From: a virus
DNA length: 31,832 nucleotides
Strand: one strand, 5' to 3'
Virus record (IMG/VR): IMGVR_UViG_3300021963_000439
Coordinates: 1-31,832 of that record
Position 1 is the first letter of the stretch; each line of letters begins with the position of its first letter. Below are positions 5,935-31,832 of the stretch, piece by piece. Under the pieces are notes generated by a model. It did not search any database and was not told the origin of the DNA. It saw nothing but the letters and a program-made list of their open reading frames with translations. The position numbers and the translations under genes are program-made.

Positions 5935-6182
5935 TTTATACAGTTAGAAATATAGCAGAGTTTTGCGATGTAGATTTTGGATTTATAAGAAGAATAATTG
6001 ACTCCAATGAATTAAGACCTAAACTTATTTGCGGAAACGCAAATGAGAAAAAAGGATATAGCTTTTATCAGTTATTTATTATACAGTCTTTTTTAGAACA
6101 GCTATCTCAAAATAATTTACATTTTGATTTTGAGAATCAGGAAATTTATACAATTTACGAATCTAAACTTAACGAAATATGA
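5931..6182 (+). CDS. Small MerR/excisionase-like DNA-binding protein (83 aa)
   Basis: The N-terminal part reads YTVRNIAEFCDVDFGFIRRI then DSNELRPK, which follows the pattern of MerR-type or excisionase-like helix-turn-helix domains: a first helix that ends in a short turn, a recognition helix and a small wing. The rest is an amphipathic helix and an acidic tail. It overlaps its neighbours on both sides by ATGA junctions, so translation is coupled. Lying between the repeat array and a methyltransferase, it could regulate this operon or the origin. The assignment is by pattern only, and the missing typical residues of classic MerR proteins make a different small winged-helix fold possible. Confidence 0.5.
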   Translation: MIYTVRNIAEFCDVDFGFIRRIIDSNELRPKLICGNANEKKGYSFYQLFIIQSFLEQLSQNNLHFDFENQEIYTIYESKLNEI

Positions 6183-7138
6183 ATGTAGTATCACTATTTA
6201 ACGGAATGAATACCGGAAGACAAGCTCTTGAAAATGTTGGCATAAAAGTAAATAAATATTATTCAAGTGAAATTAAACCTTATGCAATAGAATTAACACA
6301 ACACCATTTTCCAGATACTATTCAAGTAGGAGACGTAACAAAATGGAGAGAGTGGAATATAGATTGGAGTACTATTGATTTAATATTAAGTGGAAGTCCT
6401 TGTCAAGATTTATCTGCCGCTGGTAAAAGAGCTGGTATTAATGGAAGTAGAAGTAGTTTATTTTTTGTTTTTGTAGAAATATTAGAACATATAAAATCAT
6501 TAAATCCTAAAGTATTATTTCTTCAAGAAAATGTAGGGAGTGCAGCTAAATTAGATGTTGGAATTATGAGTAGGGCTTTAGGAGTTTATCCAGTTAGAAT
6601 TAATAGTAGTTTAGTTACTGCTCAATTAAGAGATAGATACTATTGGAGCAACATAAGAACTAAACAAGATGGAATGTTTGGTGATATTATAACTGATATT
6701 CCACAACCAAAAGACAAAGGAATAATGTTTAAAGATATTATTACAAGTGGATATGTAGAAAAAATAAAAACTGGTTGTTTAATGGAAAGCATTAGCAGAG
6801 TTCAACATACTCAAAATGGAATTAAAAGTAGAGAAAAATTTGGGGTGCCTCAAATTTATGTAGATACTGACAAACATACTTGTTTAAACACCGGTAGTGG
6901 CGCAACTGAAAAAGCAAAACAAGAATATTTATTACATAGAAACGAAACAACAGGAATGATTACTTTGATTAAAGAAAATGAAAAAGTAAGAACAGTAAAT
7001 AAAATTGAAATGTGCAGACTTCAAGGTTTTCCCGATAATTATTGCGATATACTTTCAACTCCAAAAGCAGGAAGTTTACTTGGTGATGGATGGACTTTAC
7101 CAATAATAGAACATATATTTAAATTTATAAAACCATAA
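6179..7138 (+). CDS. DNA (cytosine-5-)-methyltransferase
   Basis: This 319-aa protein has the full C5-methylase motif order. Motif I is SLFNGMNTGRQAL (5-17), which binds SAM. Motif IV GSPCQDLS holds the catalytic Cys75. Motif VI is ENV (117-119), motif VIII QLRDR (149-153), motif IX RLQGFPDNYCD (near 274-284), and motif X ends the protein near GDGWTLPIIEHIF. The length is at the short end for the family, with a compact target-recognition region at about 165-265. The motif I variant resembles the DNMT3-like branch seen in phages. No cognate restriction enzyme gene lies nearby, so it is most likely an orphan methylase that protects phage DNA. The target sequence cannot be inferred. It is coupled to the gene before it by ATGA. 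Confidence 0.93.
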   Translation: MNVVSLFNGMNTGRQALENVGIKVNKYYSSEIKPYAIELTQHHFPDTIQVGDVTKWREWNIDWSTIDLILSGSPCQDLSAAGKRAGINGSRSSLFFVFVEILEHIKSLNPKVLFLQENVGSAAKLDVGIMSRALGVYPVRINSSLVTAQLRDRYYWSNIRTKQDGMFGDIITDIPQPKDKGIMFKDIITSGYVEKIKTGCLMESISRVQHTQNGIKSREKFGVPQIYVDTDKHTCLNTGSGATEKAKQEYLLHRNETTGMITLIKENEKVRTVNKIEMCRLQGFPDNYCDILSTPKAGSLLGDGWTLPIIEHIFKFIKP

Positions 7139-24187: not shown

Positions 24188-25339
24188 TTATGCAGTTGCA
24201 GTAAAATCACCATAAACCAATGCTAATGGTTGCTCAACAGCTAACGCTACTTGTGCTTCAATACGAGCAGTAATGTTATTGTTTACAAAGTTAGATCCTT
24301 CAGTTTCTGAAAACTCTAAAGATAATCCTTCAGTAGTTACTTTGTTAACTCTTGTCCAATCACCTACATAGTATTTGTGAGCAGTTAACCAAGTTGCTTT
24401 GAACACTTGAACTCCTGCAACTCTTAAAACTCCACCTTCGTAAGTAACAGCAGACTCTAAATCCATTTTCGCAGTTTTCAAGATATCTAAATAATCAGTT
24501 GGTCTAATAACGATACCATTTACAGTATAGTTAGCATCTTCTAATTTACCAATCTCATTGATAAGCATTTCAGATTTAGTGCTTCCTGTTATAACTTCAG
24601 TTGAATCAGTAGCATCATTAGCTAATACAGTATTAAATGCAGCGTTTTCAGCTTTCAAGTAATCTCTTCTTAATAAATCAGGAATAGCTGAAGTTATGTA
24701 AGATAAGTTATTACGCATTTTTTTAGAGTAACGAGCAAAACCAGCAATAAAGTTTGTTGGAACATCAACAGCAGTAAAATCGTAATCTCTTTGGTTTTTA
24801 GCAGAGTTTTCAGAGTTTGCTCCGATTGATCCTTCACCAGCACCTTCAACTGTATAAGTATAAGTTCCGCCATTAATGTTGATGTTACCTGTTAAGTCAG
24901 CAACGTTTACCATTTGAGCAGGGAATTTAACTATATCAAAGTTATAATCTCTTGGCTCTTCTCCAGTTAAGTTTGCAGTTGTCATGTTTCCAACTGTTTT
25001 CAATCTTACTTTGTTGTTTTCGTGAACATTTGCAATTTTTTCAGCATTGTCTTTAATTACAGATTTGATAGCATCAACTCCTTTGTTAGCAGTTGCTTTT
25101 GCTCCTTCTTGTAATTTAACATCCAATTTGTCAGCGTGATCTTGAACCGCTTTTAAGTCAGCAGCAAATTTAGCTTCAAGTTGATTTTTTACGCTTTGTA
25201 ATTCTGCATCGAAAGTAGATACGATTTCCGCAGTTAATTTTGTTTCAAACGCTTCGATTGCGCTTTTTACTTCAGCAGATGTTTTAGTTTCTAATCCGCT
25301 TTTAATCTGTGCCAATTCGGCTAATAATTTTTCGTCCAT
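24188..25339 (-). CDS. Major capsid protein (HK97 fold)
   Basis: The 383-aa protein has an N-terminal coiled-coil segment of about 100 residues (ELAQIKSGLETKTSAEVKSA and on), rich in Ala, Lys and Glu, that acts as the scaffolding delta domain and is removed by the protease. The rest (about 115-383) shows HK97 capsid features: KFPAQMVNVADL near the start of the mature part, VPTNFIAGFARYSKKM, IPDLLRRDYLKAENAAFN and IVIRPTDYLDILKTAKM. It follows the protease gene by three bases. A strong terminator lies directly behind it. Confidence 0.93.
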   Translation of the reverse strand: MDEKLLAELAQIKSGLETKTSAEVKSAIEAFETKLTAEIVSTFDAELQSVKNQLEAKFAADLKAVQDHADKLDVKLQEGAKATANKGVDAIKSVIKDNAEKIANVHENNKVRLKTVGNMTTANLTGEEPRDYNFDIVKFPAQMVNVADLTGNININGGTYTYTVEGAGEGSIGANSENSAKNQRDYDFTAVDVPTNFIAGFARYSKKMRNNLSYITSAIPDLLRRDYLKAENAAFNTVLANDATDSTEVITGSTKSEMLINEIGKLEDANYTVNGIVIRPTDYLDILKTAKMDLESAVTYEGGVLRVAGVQVFKATWLTAHKYYVGDWTRVNKVTTEGLSLEFSETEGSNFVNNNITARIEAQVALAVEQPLALVYGDFTATA

Positions 25340-26083: not shown

Positions 26084-27382
26084 TTAGAATGTAAAAAATG
26101 TTTGTTTTAAGTCAAAATAGAATCGCATGGCCAAAGCATCGGAATAGTCAGGTGAATGTCCTATTAATTCCTTTACTTTCTCTTTTGGAAGTATTCGCAG
26201 TTTACCATCCTGGTCAATCTTATCCCTTTTAACTTGTTCTAACTCTTTGCTTATTATATCTTGTACATCGGCATTGTTGCAATCGATAAATAGTTTATTC
26301 GCCTGGATCAGTTCAGCAAGTTTATAATAGCATTGCGTTTTTAGGTTTTGATACTCTACATTATTGTTTTCCTCTTTTAATGCTTTGGAATTATTTACAA
26401 ATCCTTTACAGCGGACAATATCCACAACACCACCACCAACACCATCTTCATCGGCAACCACATTAGACAATGGGACTCTATGTTTATTCATTAATGATTT
26501 GATTGCTTCGGCAGTTTCGGTAATACTTGATTTGTCTAAAGTAAATATTTCAATAACCCTAAAGCCACTCCAAACTAATATAACCATCTTATCACTTCCG
26601 TATCGAGCAATATCAGCACTAATATACATATCACCACTATCAACAAAGTCGTTAGTAAATATGTTCTGTATCTTATCAAAATCAATAAGCCTTGCAGGAT
26701 CATTGTCAAACTCCCAATTACCATAATATAACCTTTGCTTACTATTTTCATCTAAAGCGAGTAAACTATCTAAATATGATAATGGTAAGTTAGGATTGTC
26801 AGTTGGAAGCGATTGTATAAACTTTCTCGTTTCATTTATAGTTCCGGCAGCAGTAGGAAGGTAAAACTTTGAATAAGTCCAGTTCTTTGCCGGGTTGCAC
26901 GTTCCTAATATCTTTGGAGTAAGGTTAAACTCGTTTAGTTTATATCTTATCCTGGATGTAACTATTTGCCACGCTTTAAATGATATTTGATTGCACTCAT
27001 CTATAAAAGCTCCGGTTATCTCTAACGAACCTAAACTATCAAAGTTAGGATCAGCGGGATAGGAATATAAATCCTTTAAAAGTATTTCGCTTCCATTGGT
27101 CCAGGTTATCACTCCTGTTTGACTATTGTAGTTATAGGAAGTAGATAGTTTTAAATTAGATGTAAGTTCAAAGAAAGTGTTTAAAGTAGTTTCTTTTAAT
27201 GTCTTTAGCTTTGACCTTCCCATTAGCCAACGAGTGCCTGGATAGGTTTGACATTGTTCGATAAGCCATAAAACACCGAGAGCGGATTTGCCACCACCCG
27301 CAGCACCACCATAAAGTATTTCCTTTGTGATATTATCTTTAAGATAATAAACAGCGTGTTCTTGCTTAATTAATAGTTTCAT
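26084..27382 (-). CDS. terL: Terminase large subunit
   Basis: The 432-aa protein has the packaging ATPase and nuclease domains. Walker A is GGAAGGGKS (25-33) and Walker B is GAFIDEC (124-130). The nuclease acidic residues are in ISADIARYG (Asp257), DEDGVGG (from 311) and SPDYSDAL (near 415). It pumps DNA into proheads through the portal and cuts concatemers. It overlaps TerS by 17 bases, the usual tight coupling. The portal gene that normally follows is missing from this position. Confidence 0.95.
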   Translation of the reverse strand: MKLLIKQEHAVYYLKDNITKEILYGGAAGGGKSALGVLWLIEQCQTYPGTRWLMGRSKLKTLKETTLNTFFELTSNLKLSTSYNYNSQTGVITWTNGSEILLKDLYSYPADPNFDSLGSLEITGAFIDECNQISFKAWQIVTSRIRYKLNEFNLTPKILGTCNPAKNWTYSKFYLPTAAGTINETRKFIQSLPTDNPNLPLSYLDSLLALDENSKQRLYYGNWEFDNDPARLIDFDKIQNIFTNDFVDSGDMYISADIARYGSDKMVILVWSGFRVIEIFTLDKSSITETAEAIKSLMNKHRVPLSNVVADEDGVGGGVVDIVRCKGFVNNSKALKEENNNVEYQNLKTQCYYKLAELIQANKLFIDCNNADVQDIISKELEQVKRDKIDQDGKLRILPKEKVKELIGHSPDYSDALAMRFYFDLKQTFFTF

Positions 27383-27797
27383 TTGGTTTTATTCCACTAC
27401 CTAAACTAATAATGTTTGTAGTGATTTCACCGGAGTGTTCTGTTTGAATCCTATCGCTGTATTCTTTAGGCTTTAATTTAGAAAGTTCCCATTTCTTTGC
27501 ATCTATTTTTAACCTTTGAAGTTGAACCCATCCAGGATCAATTTTACCTGTAACCGGATCCCTTTGAGGTTCTTCCATATAATCACGTTCAATACTTTCA
27601 AATTTTACTTCAATCCTATCATCTTTTGCACGTGCGTATTGGTCGGAAAATTGTACATCTTCTTTTACCCATTCGTTAAAAGTATCTCTATTTATAGTTT
27701 TTAATTTTTTAATTGCAGACCGCAAAGAAGCACCATTTTCAATTTCTAAAATGATACTATTAAAGATTTTAGTCTTTTGTTCTTTACTATATGCCAT
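27366..27797 (-). CDS. terS: Terminase small subunit
   Basis: The 143-aa protein has an N-terminal helix-turn-helix (residues about 5-55, ASLRSAIKKLK, then TFNEWVKED) for DNA recognition, a central helical oligomerisation part (WVQLQRLKIDAKKWELSKLK) and the usual PKEYSDRIQTEHSGE near the end. It chooses phage DNA for packaging and activates TerL. A leader with two alternative hairpins (27815-27862) ends 17 nt before its ATG. Confidence 0.9.
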   Translation of the reverse strand: MAYSKEQKTKIFNSIILEIENGASLRSAIKKLKTINRDTFNEWVKEDVQFSDQYARAKDDRIEVKFESIERDYMEEPQRDPVTGKIDPGWVQLQRLKIDAKKWELSKLKPKEYSDRIQTEHSGEITTNIISLGSGIKPNETIN

Positions 27798-27814
27798 AAT
27801 TTTATATTTTTAAA

Positions 27815-27862
27815 AACCTACCACCGGAGCAGTAGGTTACCGGTAAATTTAATTTGCTACCG
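27815..27862 (-). promoter_or_regulatory. Leader with competing hairpins before TerS
   Basis: On the minus strand hairpin 1 is CGGTA/TACCG (27862-27858 with 27845-27841), with a 12-nt loop carrying GCAAATTAAATT. Hairpin 2 is AACCTAC (27838-27832)/GTAGGTT (27821-27815), followed by TTTTTA, terminator-like. ACCGG in the 3' arm of hairpin 1 can also pair with CCGGT in the loop of hairpin 2 (27844-27840 with 27827-27823), which makes a pseudoknot and breaks hairpin 1. The same arrangement occurs at 28322-28372. Confidence 0.6.
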
Positions 27863-27867
27863 TTTTA

Positions 27868-28302
27868 TTATATTAATTCTCCTATTTTACCTAATTCATT
27901 AATAACATCGGGATTATTATCATAATGTTTTGAAATGCCTAATTCTTTAATCTTTTCAATCTTTGCTTTATTAGATCCTGTTGCAAATATACGAGAATGT
28001 GGAATATTTAGTTTATCAGCTTTGCTATACATCATAGATTTAGATGAACGAGCTGAAATAATATAAACAATATTACCTTTATTTATTTCTTCTTGTGCTA
28101 ATTCCATTCCTTTAGCGGTTGACAAAGTTCCATCATAATCAAATGAAACTTTTATTTTTTCAGCTTTAGTTTCGGTCCAGGCTGATTGACAAACTGCATA
28201 ACGTTGCTGTACATCATATTCATCATTCATTTTTTCATCCTCCATACATCTTTGAATGAAGTCAGTTCTATTCTCGCTTGGAGTTGGGTTTGGTATTGGC
28301 AT
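27868..28302 (-). CDS. HAD-like phosphatase fused to a short phage N-terminal domain
   Basis: The 144-aa protein has two parts. Residues 1-43 (DFIQRCMEDEKMN and QQRYAVCQSAW) form a small domain widely found on phage head proteins, usually recognised as FI-RCM...M and QR-AVC-W. Residues 50-144 are a compact HAD fold: FDYDGTLS (53-60, with the nucleophile and acid Asp), IISARSS (motif II), Lys in SNKAKIEKI, and HYDNNPDVI (motif IV). It may remove phosphate from a nucleotide or protein. The fusion is unusual to me. It lies just ahead of TerS in the packaging region. Confidence 0.75.
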   Translation of the reverse strand: MPIPNPTPSENRTDFIQRCMEDEKMNDEYDVQQRYAVCQSAWTETKAEKIKVSFDYDGTLSTAKGMELAQEEINKGNIVYIISARSSKSMMYSKADKLNIPHSRIFATGSNKAKIEKIKELGISKHYDNNPDVINELGKIGELI

Positions 28303-28321
28303 AATAGTTTTTTAATACGTT

Positions 28322-28372
28322 AAACCTACTCTATTGCTAAAATAGGTAAAGAGTAACTTTAATTTACTACTC
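28322..28372 (-). promoter_or_regulatory. Leader with competing hairpins before the HAD-like gene
   Basis: On the minus strand hairpin 1 pairs GAGTA (28372-28368) with TACTC (28355-28351) around a 12-nt loop GTAAATTAAAGT. Hairpin 2 pairs ACCTA (28347-28343) with TAGGT (28328-28324). TACTCT (28355-28350) can instead pair with AGAGTA (28332-28327), giving a crossing alternative that disrupts hairpin 1. The design matches 27815-27862 with different stem bases. It ends 19 nt before the ATG. Confidence 0.55.
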
Positions 28373-28375
28373 CCG

Positions 28376-28591
28376 TTAATTTTTATTCATTAAGTTTCTA
28401 ATCGCTATATTTTTTTTAATCTCATCGTATAGTTCACCGTTGAATTCCAATATGAAATCAGTTCCATTTAAAACCAAACACATTGTTTCGCTGTCAATCA
28501 CATAACAACCATTCACATCAGAGATAACAAAATCAAAGTTTCGGTATTCCTGATCATGTTCAGTTTCTATTAAAACTCTCGGCTGTTTCAT
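28376..28591 (-). CDS. First gene of the leftward arm, hypothetical (71 aa)
   Basis: I do not recognise this protein. It has 71 residues with a regular beta pattern (FDFVISDVNGCYVID, then MCLVLNGTDFILEFNGE) and a short helical end (IAIRNLMNKN); it may be a small beta-barrel. Its ATG lies only 5 nt after the -7 box TATCTTTG, so the mRNA probably starts at or next to the start codon, as a leaderless transcript. It heads the whole late arm and could be an early regulator or packaging factor. Confidence 0.65.
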   Translation of the reverse strand: MKQPRVLIETEHDQEYRNFDFVISDVNGCYVIDSETMCLVLNGTDFILEFNGELYDEIKKNIAIRNLMNKN

Positions 28592-28596
28592 AAAAA

Positions 28597-28604
28597 CAAA
28601 GATA
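28597..28604 (-). promoter_or_regulatory. -7 promoter box TATCTTTG, start of the leftward arm
   Basis: A full TAnnTTTG match on the minus strand, with the final G 5 nt before the ATG at 28591. It stands back to back with the rightward promoter at 28628-28658, forming the divergent control region 28592-28679. The matching upstream box is weak, so it may need an activator. Confidence 0.6.
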
Positions 28605-28627
28605 ATTAAAAAATAATTATAAAAAAG

Positions 28628-28658
28628 TTTGGTAGTTAATTATAAATAACTATATTTG
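28628..28658 (+). promoter_or_regulatory. Strong rightward early promoter TTTG-N19-TATATTTG
   Basis: TTTG (28628-28631), a 19-bp spacer and TATATTTG (28651-28658) match the full Bacteroidota promoter. The spacer contains TTAATTATAAAT, which recurs in the promoter at 30380-30410 (15 of 19 spacer positions identical). TAATTATAAA occurs again at 28614-28623, just upstream. The start of transcription should be near 28663-28666. Confidence 0.8.
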
Positions 28659-28679
28659 CATATAACTAAAACAAAAATT

Positions 28680-28766
28680 ATGAAAACATTTTTATCAAAA
28701 CAAAAGTACCAAGTTTACGCAATTGGATTCATTGCAGTATATTTTTTAACCAGATTTTTATATTAA
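28680..28766 (+). CDS. Tiny membrane peptide (28 aa)
   Basis: An ATG 21 nt after the strong promoter starts a 28-residue peptide: a basic head (MKTFLSKQKY) and one hydrophobic helix (VYAIGFIAVYFLTRFLY). It is the first reading frame of the early transcript, and the next gene starts two bases after its stop. Small early membrane peptides can change host membrane functions or superinfection. Coding is inferred from promoter, spacing and composition; no family is recognised. Confidence 0.5.
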   Translation: MKTFLSKQKYQVYAIGFIAVYFLTRFLY

Positions 28767-28768
28767 TT

Positions 28769-28999
28769 ATGAGTATCAGAGCAAAGCAAAAATTCTATAA
28801 CCAAGCAGTAATACTTGGAATAGATTTAAAGGATTTGGATGTTGAGAAATTAGATTTTTCAGCACCACAGAAACACAAGAGCAGTTTTAAGAAACGAGCT
28901 TCAGAAATAAAAGAATTATACAACTATCGATTTCCGGTTTATGTAGAGCCAAGAAGTTTTGATTTCGGATTGTTTAACATTGAATTTAAAAGAAAATGA
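28769..28999 (+). CDS. Early hypothetical protein (76 aa)
   Basis: I do not recognise this protein. It is basic, 76 aa, with a helical start (AKQKFYNQAVILGIDLKDLD) and an aromatic end (DFGLFNIEFKRK). It has no membrane segment or Cys. It follows the tiny membrane peptide and overlaps the next start by ATGA, so it is part of a chain of small coupled early genes. A nucleic-acid or host-factor binding role would fit its charge but is a guess. Confidence 0.6.
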   Translation: MSIRAKQKFYNQAVILGIDLKDLDVEKLDFSAPQKHKSSFKKRASEIKELYNYRFPVYVEPRSFDFGLFNIEFKRK

Positions 29000-29109
29000 C
29001 AGATCAAGAAAAAAAAGAATTAGACTATGTCTTAAAGACAGCTATGCAAGTAGCATTAGGAATAGCAGTATTGTTTCTTGGATTACTAATTATAACTAAT
29101 CTATTATGA
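28996..29109 (+). CDS. Small membrane protein (37 aa)
   Basis: The ATG overlaps the preceding stop as ATGA, and its own stop overlaps the following ATG in the same way. The 37-aa product has a charged start (MTDQEKKELDYVLKT) and a single membrane helix (VALGIAVLFLGLLIITNLL). The two coupled junctions and the clean membrane helix support a real gene although it is very short. Its role is unknown. With the 28-aa peptide it is the second small membrane protein of this early operon. Confidence 0.6.
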   Translation: MTDQEKKELDYVLKTAMQVALGIAVLFLGLLIITNLL

Positions 29110-29429
29110 AGAAGTTAATATTAGACTCGATATTGGATTTTTGTAATGAGAACTATAATTGGTTTGATTATTATATTAACTCCAAAGGCTTTGAAATTTA
29201 CGATAATGATTTCAATGTTATTGCTGTTGTTGATTTTGAGGTTGAGGTTGAGGTGTATCGTAAGCCATGCACCGGTAATTATTTCAATCCGCCTGAAACA
29301 GGTGAATGTGATTTTATACTTTACGAAATAACTGTACACGAAGTTTATAACTCAAAAGGCAAATTACTGCCAAACTATAAATTGAAACTACAAAGCGAAT
29401 TGGATAACGTAAAAGGTAAAATAATATGA
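29106..29429 (+). CDS. Early hypothetical protein (107 aa)
   Basis: The protein has a helical start, a strand pair (FEIYDNDFNVIAVVDFEVEVE) that is cut here to short pieces by Asp and Glu, the loop CTGNYFNPPETGECDF and a final charged helix. The NPPE loop after a Cys is seen in small conserved phage proteins of unknown function. It is coupled by ATGA to the genes on both sides. No enzyme motif was found. The reading frame is strongly supported by these overlaps, but function is unknown. Confidence 0.65.
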   Translation: MKKLILDSILDFCNENYNWFDYYINSKGFEIYDNDFNVIAVVDFEVEVEVYRKPCTGNYFNPPETGECDFILYEITVHEVYNSKGKLLPNYKLKLQSELDNVKGKII

Positions 29430-29635
29430 CAGCAGTAGAATGGTTAGAAGATTGTTTAACAGAGCAATATCCAAATGGTAAATTTGTTTGGAATACAAGA
29501 GCAGATATAGAAGCTTTATTTAAACGTGCCAAAGAAATGGAAAAGCAACAGATAGTTGAGGCAAGAGTAAAAAAACCATTACAATCAGAATGGGATGAAG
29601 CAGAACAATATTACAACGAAACTTTTAACAAATAA
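29426..29635 (+). CDS. MTAVEWL-type early protein (69 aa), copy 1
   Basis: The protein begins MTAVEWLEDC and holds the helix KRAKEMEKQQIVEA. A shorter relative at 30024-30224 has the same start and the same AKEMEK helix, so the two are paralogues. I have the impression that small proteins beginning like this are widespread in Bacteroidota phages. The product is acidic and helical with no known catalytic motif. It is coupled by ATGA to the gene before it. Function unknown. Confidence 0.65.
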   Translation: MTAVEWLEDCLTEQYPNGKFVWNTRADIEALFKRAKEMEKQQIVEARVKKPLQSEWDEAEQYYNETFNK

Positions 29636-29638
29636 ATT

Positions 29639-30022
29639 ATGAAAACAAAAAATAGTTACCCAAGTTCAGAGTTTGAATCTAAAGATAGATGCCCATCTTG
29701 TGGAAGTTATTGTGATATTCATATAGATTTAGATGATAATGATAAATGTAATGATTGTAAAATTTTTAAAGACAATTTAGAAACTGCTTCTATTGATTAT
29801 AGAGATAAATCTGATGATGAAAATACAGATGAAGAAACAATGTTAATAAATGTAAATTGGTATGATAAACAAGAAGCATTTATAGCAGGTGCTAAATGGC
29901 AACAAGAAAGAAGTTATAGTGAGGAAGAAGTGATAGCATTTGGAGAGGATATATTTAAACATTATCTATTAGCACATTCCAAAGGAGTTAAAAATTTATT
30001 TGAACAATTTAAAAACAAATAA
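29639..30022 (+). CDS. Zinc-ribbon-like early protein (127 aa)
   Basis: The N-terminal half has CPSCGSYC and, about 17 residues later, CNDCK, a likely four-Cys zinc site. The C-terminal half has the helix EAFIAGAKWQQERSYSEEEV, a motif I see often at the ends of small Bacteroidota phage proteins. An acidic linker with many Asp joins the two. It starts three bases after the previous stop. Function unknown; a DNA- or protein-binding adaptor fits the zinc site. Confidence 0.65.
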   Translation: MKTKNSYPSSEFESKDRCPSCGSYCDIHIDLDDNDKCNDCKIFKDNLETASIDYRDKSDDENTDEETMLINVNWYDKQEAFIAGAKWQQERSYSEEEVIAFGEDIFKHYLLAHSKGVKNLFEQFKNK

Positions 30023-30023
30023 G

Positions 30024-30224
30024 ATGACAGCAGTAGAATGGTTATGTGAACAATATCATTTGAAACAAGATATAGAGATAGTTAAACAAGCCAAAGAAAT
30101 GGAAAAAGAACAATTAGAATATGCCTGGAACTCATCAGATCAAAACATGCGTTTTCAGTTTAGTAGTTCATCATATAAACCTATTACATTTAAACAATGG
30201 TTAGAAATTTTTAAAGAAGAATAA
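30024..30224 (+). CDS. MTAVEWL-type early protein (66 aa), copy 2
   Basis: The start at 30024 gives MTAVEWLCEQYHLKQ, parallel to the copy at 29426. A TTG at 30000 would add eight residues but overlaps the previous gene. The protein shares AKEMEK with copy 1, lacks the middle insert, and ends with a different helix (FKQWLEIFKEE). It is likely a diverged duplicate. It follows the zinc-ribbon gene by one base. Confidence 0.65.
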   Translation: MTAVEWLCEQYHLKQDIEIVKQAKEMEKEQLEYAWNSSDQNMRFQFSSSSYKPITFKQWLEIFKEE

Positions 30225-30225
30225 T

Positions 30226-30378
30226 ATGAAAAAAGAAAAAAATTTAGGAGGCAGACCTAAAGCATTTATAGACGATGTGGCGGTTGTATTGCCAATATCA
30301 GTTCCAAGCAAAGAACGTGAAAGATTGCGTATAAAATGGAACAAAGATTTAGATGAATTTAGAATTAAGAAAAAATAA
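30226..30378 (+). CDS. Small basic GGRPK protein (50 aa)
   Basis: This short gene, from the ATG just after the preceding stop, makes a 50-aa basic protein with LGGRPK near the N-terminus, then a strand (VAVVLPISVPSK) and a helix (ERERLRIKWNKDLDEF). A GRPK arm ahead of a strand and helix is typical of small ribbon-helix-helix type DNA-binding proteins of plasmids and phages. It could regulate the promoter that begins two bases after its stop (30380). The assignment is tentative. Confidence 0.55.
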   Translation: MKKEKNLGGRPKAFIDDVAVVLPISVPSKERERLRIKWNKDLDEFRIKKK

Positions 30379-30379
30379 A

Positions 30380-30410
30380 TTTGTTTATTAATTATAAATT
30401 ACTATCTTTG
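30380..30410 (+). promoter_or_regulatory. Rightward promoter TTTG-N19-TATCTTTG for the recombination operon
   Basis: TTTG (30380-30383), 19 bp, then TATCTTTG (30403-30410) give a perfect Bacteroidota promoter. The spacer has TTAATTATAAAT, nearly the same as in the promoter at 28628-28658. Transcription should begin near 30415, right at the start of the hairpin leader. Confidence 0.82.
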
Positions 30411-30413
30411 TAA

Positions 30414-30500
30414 AAGCATTGGTCAGAGTGCTTAAAACCGAAACATAACTATTCCCTCTGACACTACATACTGACCTATGTTTTGAAAGAGGGATTTTTT
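30414..30500 (+). ncRNA. Structured 5' leader with complementary hexaloops (copy 2)
   Basis: P1 pairs AAGCATT (30414-30420) with AGTGCTT (30427-30433), one T-G wobble, around the hexaloop GGTCAG (30421-30426). A 19-nt linker follows. P2 pairs TCCCTCT (30453-30459) with AGAGGGA (30488-30494); inside it P3 pairs ACATA with TATGT around the hexaloop CTGACC (30471-30476), the exact complement of the P1 loop. Six T (30495-30500) and an AT-rich 12 nt lead to the ATG at 30513. GTCAGAG (30422-30428) can also pair with CTCTGAC (30456-30462), which would block P2, an antiterminator-like option. The layout matches 3081-3170 element by element. Confidence 0.8.
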
Positions 30501-30512
30501 ATTTAAACTATT

Positions 30513-30728
30513 ATGAAAACACTATTTGAAAATTTAAAAGAAGAACACAAATTGCAGTTGGAAGTGATGAAAGAAGATTATCCATCCTCTTATGCTGCTT
30601 TGGTAAAAACATTACAAGACAACACTTTGTTTACGCTGCTGACAATATCGGAAGCATATACATTGCTAATTAACACGAGTAACAAAAGTTTTTCAGTAAC
30701 CAATTTAGCCGAACTATTTTATGAGTAA
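30513..30728 (+). CDS. Small hypothetical protein of the recombination operon (71 aa)
   Basis: I do not recognise a named family. The protein is helical and acidic with a start like other Bacteroidota phage proteins (LFENLKEEHKLQLE) and a second helix around LFTLLTISEAYTLL. It lies directly after the structured leader and overlaps the annealase gene by 8 bases, so the two are translated together. It may be a small partner of the annealase. No catalytic residues can be seen. Confidence 0.65.
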   Translation: MKTLFENLKEEHKLQLEVMKEDYPSSYAALVKTLQDNTLFTLLTISEAYTLLINTSNKSFSVTNLAELFYE

Positions 30729-31344
30729 TTTACCAAAAATTAATGATTTATATTCCGATAAACTTTCTATTCAGAAAGCGGATGTATTTGTAACTTTAAT
30801 GAATCAGCAACCTAAACAAGAATGGGTAAAAGACCATCCTTTTATAAGAGGTTATAAATACTTACCTATTGAAAGGATTGAATATTTATTAAAAACTATA
30901 TTCAAGTCTTATAAGATTGAAATTACAGGCCAAGGCACATCATTTAACGGTGTTTGGGTAACTGTTAGAATACATTATTTGCATCCGGTAAATGGCGAAT
31001 GGTTGTTTCATGATGGCATTGGTGCTTCGCAGTTACAAACTGCCAAAGGAACATCCCCTGCGGATTTAAACAATATCAATAATGGTGCTTTATCAATGGC
31101 CTATCCTGTTGCAAAAACAATAGCTATAAAAGATGCTGCGGATCACTTTGGTAAGTTATTTGGATCTGATTTAAACCGTGAGGATTTAATTAACTACGAA
31201 TTAGATTTGACATTGATTGAATTAACACCGGATCATCCTAATTGGAATAAGGTAAAAGAAGCTGTAAAAAGCGGTAACTATACGATTGAACAAATACGAA
31301 CTAAATACAATTTATCAGATGAAAACGCAAAACAACTTATTTAA
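30721..31344 (+). CDS. Putative single-strand annealing recombinase (Rad52/ERF-like)
   Basis: This 207-aa protein has features of Rad52/22- and ERF-type annealing proteins: an early helix and YKYLPIERIEYLLKTIF, a beta stretch (WVTVRIHYLHP), the DGIGA segment, then AYPVAKTIAIKDAADHFGKL and FGSDLNR, where a Lys-x-Asp-Ala-Ala helix and a Gly-Lys-Leu-Phe turn match the conserved pattern of these families. The C-terminal part (YTIEQIRTKYNLSDE) may be a small helical domain. It would pair complementary strands during phage recombination. The exonuclease gene overlaps its end by 26 bases, giving a classic exonuclease-annealase pair. Confidence 0.72.
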   Translation: MSNLPKINDLYSDKLSIQKADVFVTLMNQQPKQEWVKDHPFIRGYKYLPIERIEYLLKTIFKSYKIEITGQGTSFNGVWVTVRIHYLHPVNGEWLFHDGIGASQLQTAKGTSPADLNNINNGALSMAYPVAKTIAIKDAADHFGKLFGSDLNREDLINYELDLTLIELTPDHPNWNKVKEAVKSGNYTIEQIRTKYNLSDENAKQLI

Positions 31345-31832
31345 AGCACGAGCTTCCGCTTCAGGAAAGCTAATGACTGCTCCAAGAGCAAAGACTGAAA
31401 CATTATCAGAAACAACAAAGACTTATGTTTATGAGTGGTTAAAAGAAAGCATTTACGGAATTCGTAAAAATATCAATAACAAATATTTATCTAAAGGATT
31501 ATGGCTTGAAGATGAAGCTATCGATAAGACTATTGAATTATTAGATTTGTCCTTTGCTATTAAGAATGAGAAATTTTTTGAAGATGATTATTTTACAGGA
31601 ACTCCGGATTTAATTGTTGATGGTGTTGTTTACGACACAAAATGCAGTTGGGATTGTTTTACGTTCCCATTATTTGATAATGATATACCAACTAAAGATT
31701 ATTACTATCAATTACAGGTTTATATGCACCTTACAGGATGTAAAAAAGCATGTTTAGTTTATGTATTGTTGAACACTCCTGAAGAATTAACTTATGAAGA
31801 AAAACATAACTACGATGATATGGATGCGAAGT
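31319..31832 (+). CDS. RecB/YqaJ-type exonuclease, 3' truncated by the window
   Basis: Read from the ATG at 31319, 171 residues are present. LEDEAID gives the first acidic residue, FTGTPDLIVDG gives the GxPD motif, YDTKCSW gives the D-x-K motif, and YYYQLQVYMHLTG gives the Gln-Tyr helix of RecB-like PD-(D/E)XK nucleases. Such exonucleases resect DNA ends and hand the strand to the annealase encoded just upstream. The length so far is most of the usual size of about 200-250 residues. The frame overlaps the annealase stop by 26 bases. On a circular genome the SSB-like gene at position 1 would be a near neighbour. Confidence 0.85.
   Translation, partial: MKTQNNLFKARASASGKLMTAPRAKTETLSETTKTYVYEWLKESIYGIRKNINNKYLSKGLWLEDEAIDKTIELLDLSFAIKNEKFFEDDYFTGTPDLIVDGVVYDTKCSWDCFTFPLFDNDIPTKDYYYQLQVYMHLTGCKKACLVYVLLNTPEELTYEEKHNYDDMDAK

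Follow-up and report, generated by a model that had tools for sequence, protein, structure and literature searches.

What are the two similar pairs of hairpins that precede the gene for a HAD-like protein and the packaging gene terS in this phage, and what might they do there? The window, which is the whole stretch of DNA analysed, is the virus record IMGVR_UViG_3300021963_000439 at its full length of 31,832 bases. Its host is a Flavobacterium-like bacterium, and the terminase region has, over part of the query, 71% DNA identity to Flavobacterium phage 11b and Cellulophaga phage phi10:1. On the minus strand the order is element A, HAD gene, element B, and terS follows. The HAD-like protein (27868-28302, 144 aa; PHROG 8630 nucleotidase, E 1.6e-5, and relatives) carries what we take to be a HAD motif, and terS (27366-27797, minus strand) matches Pfam Sf6_terminase (E 9.5e-23) and PHROG 1482. 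The arrangement A-HAD-B was met in the window only; in L204-L206 the HAD gene follows an A element and is itself followed directly by another terS.

Both segments are composed of a hairpin with a 5-bp stem and the 12-nt loop GYAAWTYAAANN (P1) and a longer second hairpin (P2). Element A, as modelled, spans 28308-28388 on the minus strand. According to sequence, folding and covariation its P1 (28351-28372) is GAGTA/TACTC with the loop GTAAATTAAAGT (28367-28356). It is followed by TTT and by P2 (28324-28347; sequence and RNA folding), a 10-bp stem with the order ACCTATTTTA-GCAA-TAGAGTAGGT and then TTAAC, leaving just three T after P2, the last stem base included. Element B (27800-27878, minus strand) has, by sequence and folding, a P1 of CGGTA/TACCG (27841-27862) with the loop GCAAATTAAATT (27857-27846), then GTA and P2 (27812-27837), a 9-10 bp stem with a TCCG tetraloop of the UNCG type, ACCTACTGC-TCCG-GTGGTAGGT, that runs into a T-run (27816-27812). 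Folding of the two sites gave minimum free energies (MFE) of -14.7 and -18.7 kcal/mol (z -2.2 and -3.1) with 10-bp P2 stems and 4-nt loops. The preliminary description had proposed a hairpin 1 with a 12-nt loop and a hairpin 2 on the minus strand at 28372-28322 and 27862-27815. Hairpin 1 is found at both sites (28372-28351; 27862-27841) and so is hairpin 2, but the latter folds as a 9-10 bp stem with a tetraloop and not as the 5-bp ACCTA/TAGGT stem with a large loop. The pattern GTAGYAAATTAAN{2,8}TAC matches three times in the window and not at all in the reversed control. Many relatives have an additional short outer helix, P0, which turns the element into a three-way junction, and MFE folding yields P0, P1 and P2 unprompted in L158 and L366. 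In element A, alignment A1 and the counting of pairs place the 3′ strand of P0 at 28315-28319 on the minus strand; the CGT at the beginning of this strand pairs with ACG at 28376-28374. These are the only three pairs in this copy, and P0 is not formed in its MFE structure.

Relatives were collected by protein searches with TerL (80 loci), the HAD-like protein (80) and the helicase-methylase (70) and by pattern scans for P2 (12 stretches), P1 (12) and the B-type P2 (2). A loose scan of the collected loci for a P1 with a 12-nt loop and then P2 returned 36 distinct sequences, all family members. The members of alignment A1 were gathered with a filter demanding P1 and P2 pairing, so the percentage paired in these two helices is partly by construction, whereas the kinds of pairs are not. 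The P2 scan ignored P1, yet the matches shown carry P1, with two exceptions, a contig of Collimonas that came out of the scan of genome contigs and L355, truncated where its contig stops; likewise, the P1 scan ignored P2, yet found L366 with the P2 ACCCGA/TCGGGT. The Collimonas genome (a MAG) gave the sole P2-pattern match in genome contigs and was judged unrelated; the model R1 found nothing in it.

The pairing is kept while the bases change. Across 36 rows and the three helices, double-sided changes occur in 13 of the 20 pairs, with 66 cells affected compared to 14.3 in shuffles (none of 500 reached the observed value) and at most 14 in slid controls. With 20 diverse rows, including two independently found members, 12 of 20 pairs are affected (42 cells vs 11.3 shuffled and at most 9 slid); these comprise all five pairs of P1, where every cell is paired, five of the ten in P2 and two of the five in P0. 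The 5′ arm of P1 can be GAGTA, CAGTA, CAGTC, CAGAC, CAGAG, CGGTA, CGGTC, CTATC or CAATC, each with the matching 3′ arm, and in the P1 loop A24, A25, T27 and A29-A31 are invariant in all rows. Of the three helices P0 is the weakest, with 66-69% of its cells paired; exchanges of C-G to A-U and of U-A to C-G are present, and type B has a different A/U pairing. At one P2 position U-G is the commonest pair (25 of 36 rows), as expected for RNA read on this strand. In the window, R1 rises above noise at A (89 bits) and B (66.2 bits) only, scores that are partly by construction because both are training rows, and the next-best non-member reaches 20.9. Among 79 TerL-relative loci 38 match with at least 56 bits (next 24.1), and among the 80 HAD loci five match with at least 85.9 bits (next 22.7); none of the 70 helicase-methylase loci exceeds 26.0. 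Two matches found through the leader protein (see below) are out of sample, L395 with 80.5 bits and the P1 CAATC/GATTG, and L392 with 46.4 bits. Covariation, held-out members and position thus strongly support one conserved structured RNA element family, as had been suggested from the differing stem bases with kept pairing; double-sided changes in homologues lie far above shuffled and slid controls.

Outside the collected loci, an exact scan of viral contigs for GTAGYAAATTAA...TAC gave at least 120 stretches; among the matches listed, those in the phage relatives L064, L110, L121 and L123 looked real, and all others were put down to chance. The whole records of phages 11b, Arctus_1, phi19:1, phi10:1 and LS06-2018-MD05 contain no R1 match at E ≤0.5. 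P12002L reaches 19.9 bits (E 0.078) only, and the weak matches in G014, G015, G018, G020 and W03 (15.7-21.5 bits) were treated as noise. A separate P1 filter that penalised G-U extensions missed most members and served as a specificity control only; it found nothing on the reversed sequence and nothing with six permuted motifs. Searched with Rfam 15, the window, L445, L366 and L158 gave nothing that reached a gathering score, and over 27780-28420 all matches at E up to 5 were far below the gathering scores. The element is therefore an RNA family in no RNA catalogue searched, and the literature searches, to which this statement is limited, found no account of it.

The hairpin at 112-154 on the plus strand had been described as a third relative, with 12 bases identical to the HAD leader. 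The identity is real: the 12-mer GTAGTAAATTAA is present twice in the window, at 122-133 on the plus and 28370-28359 on the minus strand, with 0.02 copies expected by shuffling, so that composition alone does not explain the sharing. Membership in the family does not follow, since the R1 score of 15.6 bits (E 0.6) is inside the noise and P2 is missing. In relatives the loop motif is lost (L288, L289, L351) or an unrelated hairpin is found instead (L301). Folding, R1 score and relatives show a terminator-like hairpin at 104-159 on the plus strand, strong and two-part (z -5.4), that lies after an SSB-like gene ending in DDLPF, presumably an SSB-like tail; it looks like a terminator. In L121, a 4562-base contig, element A and the SSB-gene hairpin are 3.6 kb apart, and joining the window ends 1-160 and 28308-31832 gives about 3.5 kb between the two; because these spacings agree, the window is probably a circularly permuted phage map. 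Further on the plus strand, the window encodes a fused helicase and N6/N4 DNA methylase (175-2358) and a C5-cytosine methylase (6179-7138). Just before the helicase-methylase gene L300, L304 and L307 have interlocked inverted repeats, GGTACTGGAACTACC ... GAGTTCCAGTCGTA inside GCCTTA...TAAGGC, which by eye are kept in all three and are perhaps another RNA element.

A crossing alternative pairing between the 3′ arm of P1 and the loop of hairpin 2 (TACTCT/AGAGTA in A; ACCGG/CCGGT in B) had been proposed to toggle terminator formation. With P2 as a 9-10 bp stem and a 4-nt loop, the partners AGAGTA and CCGGT fall partly or entirely within the P2 stem. The pairing breaks in divergent members: in half of the diverse rows, two of its six pairs fail. 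In the 36 sequences double-sided changes are seen in two pairs, a value reached by 194 of 500 shuffles; in the 20 diverse sequences the pair measure is reached by 237 and the covariation score by 55 of 500. The percentage paired (reached by 0 and 7 of 500) and the double-changed cells (0 of 500 in both alignments) are above shuffles, an excess that we put down to overlap with P1 and P2. Site B, with its T5 tail after P2, is called terminator-like (27835-27821), and site A is not. A toggle through this pairing is thus unsupported, as the pairing is not kept and only one site resembles a terminator. Two other pairings were tried and dropped by eye: a preQ1-like H-type pseudoknot of the P1 loop and the TTT linker, for which there is no space and which does not pair consistently in type B and L166, and a pairing of loop TTAAA with tail TTWA, whose registers do not covary.

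The element is always intercistronic and on the same strand as its neighbours, and in nearly all cases it is preceded by an ORF of 70-86 aa, the leader. In the window this ORF (28376-28591, minus strand, 71 aa; taken from the ORF list, with homologues that precede elements) has its stop at 28378-28376, overlapping the 5′ strand of P0. Generally, the 5′ end of the element lies a few nucleotides after the leader stop, which overlaps or adjoins the P0 5′ strand. The AF2 model of the leader protein has a pLDDT of 91.6 and shows five strands and a helix; its fold has no PDB match at E 0.001 and two uncharacterised viral matches, and three remote matches are named "Flagellar" or "Flagellar and Swarming motility". 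Upstream, five nucleotides before the leader ATG, the TAHHTTTG motif marks TATCTTTG (28597-28604, minus strand), the -7 box of what is predicted to be a primary promoter of the Bacteroidetes type. Of 40 distinct upstream sequences, 36 have the motif in the 40 nt that precede the leader ATG, compared to 3.2% of random 40-nt windows, and it mostly ends 4-5 nt before the ATG. In the available parts of two papers TAHHTTTG is given as the Flavobacterium -7 box (PMC6847099; PMC9723704), and going by the published spacing of -12 to -5 the leader transcript would start at the ATG or one base before it.

On the other side, the distance from the end of P2 to the next ATG is 16-25 nt across the family, with 38 nt in L359 as the exception; this range leaves out L020, L021 and L043, loose-filter hits that do not have the family features. 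The spacing is seen before several unrelated genes, including at least three kinds of small terminase, HAD-like, ParB-like, small lipoprotein-like and other genes, some labelled by eye. In L169/L367 and L368 the element lies directly between leader ORF and terS. Homing-endonuclease-like genes (HNH-like and GIY-YIG-like by eye) are inserted 3′ of terS in L169/L367 and L163/L364.

An element-blind search with the leader protein (about 70 aa) returned 59 loci, 41 of which (40 and L152) carry the element at the leader gene. In the other 18 the next gene is sigma-like (15), glycosyltransferase-like (2) or terS (1), assigned in some cases by sequence reading; six distinct loci were first classed as "other", and L417, L398 and L399 among them are sigma-like by reading. 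In the 17 of these 18 loci whose junction was listed, the next ATG either overlaps the leader stop or is about 1 nt away from it at most. The small sigma-70-like gene that starts at the leader stop (L391, L396-L399, L401, L404, L405, L407, L408, L414, L415, L417, L421, L432) gave Pfam Sigma70_r2 matches of E 9e-6 for one sequence, above the cut-off, and 4.8e-4 for another, below it. It is absent from all 14 element-bearing records searched and was detected in both positive controls.

We consider the element a cis-acting, post-transcriptional control RNA between the leader gene and the next cistron, a reading that we favour tentatively and at somewhat less than even confidence; it probably controls expression of that next gene, which is often terS. 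The frequent U-G pairs and the fixed orientation point to action on mRNA and not on DNA. The distance to the start codon is kept while the gene changes, which suggests that the second cistron is affected, and the loop is kept while the stem is rewritten, as would be expected if a factor reads the P1 loop. According to the available part of PMC6847099, Flavobacterium translates without Shine-Dalgarno sequences, and the structure of the mRNA close to the start tunes its translation. When a ribosome terminates on the leader ORF, its footprint would include the 5′ strand of P0 and the first part of P1, and P2 would border the region where ribosomes land for the next cistron. In this way the element could separate leader translation from initiation on HAD or terS, and a candidate factor reading the P1 loop might tune this initiation. 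In genomes that do not have the element, where the next gene starts at the leader stop, direct coupling would be possible. In the MFE structure of copy A the stretch ahead of the HAD start codon is single-stranded and P0 is absent, so a valve that is closed by default is not what we envisage. A bolder version, which we rate as rather doubtful, is a portable intercistronic RNA valve with its 12-nt loop read by a phage or host protein, replacing stop-start coupling; phages would then choose either the RNA or a sigma-like protein at one operon position. The element is more closely associated with the leader gene than with any one target, and a role in transcription or at the 3′ end would fit this as well.

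The first such role is that of a transcription attenuator: P2 would act as an intrinsic terminator ahead of terS and after the leader, and readthrough would be set by P1, either by way of a bound factor or by translation of the leader, this time without the crossing pairing. Site B, with a 9-bp stem, a UNCG loop and five T, was called terminator-like, and the position of the element about 220 nt from the predicted start site, after a translated leader ORF, is the classical attenuator layout. But most members, site A included, have a T3-T4 tail broken by A or C, site A was not called terminator-like, the crossing pairing is not conserved and no antiterminator overlapping P2 was found. As an account of the family attenuation is therefore unlikely; for the B-type copies it is possible. 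About as unlikely, in our judgement, is a role in mRNA processing or stability, in which the fold would mark a site of cleavage or protection, so that the leader portion of the transcript and the terS portion decay at different rates. The constant intercistronic, same-strand position, the stable stems and the many kinds of next genes would all agree with it, but a generic stabiliser does not need a P1 loop that is kept at most positions while the stem is rewritten.

Quite improbable is a cis-acting antiterminator RNA that binds RNA polymerase. The size of about 65-80 nt, the two stem-loops and the distance of about 220 nt from the predicted start resemble HK022 put as described in the available part of PMC9378689, and a strong terminator-like hairpin stands further down the late region at 24168-24141. 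On the other hand, the later genes have -7 boxes of their own (26040-26033, 22319-22312, 14431-14424), so the unit with the element may be leader-HAD-terS-terL only, and antitermination leaves the constant distance to the next start codon unexplained. The hairpin at 24168-24141 (minus strand, 11 bp, long T-run) comes right after the ORF 24188-25339, probably the major capsid gene, and before further late genes. A DNA-level site, either pac or cos, to be recognised by TerS, or a site of recombination where modules meet, would account for the proximity to terS in most relatives and for the genes after the element that vary between phages. We regard it as very improbable, as U-G pairs occur often in the stems, there are two copies in the window, and the element precedes non-terS genes in L361, L357, L392 and L162 and is far from terS in Muminvirus. 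A functionless chance likeness of AT-rich loops, for which the low GC content and the weakness of loop likeness alone (compare 112-154) could be cited, is negligible given covariation far above shuffled and slid controls, the gap between members and noise in 79 loci, and the held-out members.

A second setting was found among isolated Flavobacterium phages (46 records by DNA similarity), where R1 matches with 33.1-36.7 bits between two late genes. This copy has the stem GGGGCG/CGCCCC, the loop GTAATTTAAAAA as in L163 and L181 and a longer second arm, and ends about 15 nt before the next ATG. Judged by these sequence features it is likely a distant family member. Alignment of three isolated-phage copies showed two differences between them, a single-base deletion in the region of the stem and an upstream substitution, and such near-alike copies permit no covariation test; folding of the longer piece gave a z of -1.55 only. 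In Muminvirus the element lies far from terS. Within the second arm of the Muminvirus element (L445:776-860; MN812240 24575-24659) lies GGTTCGAGTTCC, similar to a tRNA T-arm. Since isolated phages have a likely related copy, the element can be tested in culture. Little is known of gene control in Bacteroidota phages, whose hosts do without Shine-Dalgarno sequences; a compact RNA with a readable loop, kept at a constant distance from the second cistron, would offer a way to learn how these phages set the level of their packaging genes. For annotation, the element is a new RNA family, with no matching Rfam 15 model.

Structured cis-acting phage RNAs are represented as a kind among the families of Rfam 15, none of which matches the element. 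The preQ1-I riboswitch is a small 5-bp hairpin with an 11-13 nt loop that is followed by an expression platform, and P1 with its 5 bp and 12-nt loop is alike; TTT directly follows P1, so there is no room for the preQ1-I H-type pseudoknot, and the Rfam covariance model of this riboswitch gave no match. Classical leader-peptide attenuators consist of a promoter, a short translated leader ORF and a hairpin before the operon genes. The element likewise comes after a predicted promoter and a leader ORF and before operon genes, but its leader is a conserved 70-86 aa protein with a confident predicted fold, type A copies do not have a good U-tract, and no antiterminator was found. HK022 put is, according to the available part of PMC9378689, about 70 nt long with two stem-loops, and putR lies about 270 nt from its start in a phage operon. 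Two stem-loops in about 70 nt are also true of the element, so size and layout agree. Binding to the zinc-binding domain of the RNA polymerase beta′ subunit is a feature of put. The phylum of the host differs, and the element is intercistronic, keeps a fixed spacing to the next start codon, has a conserved 12-nt loop and is followed by later genes with their own predicted promoters.
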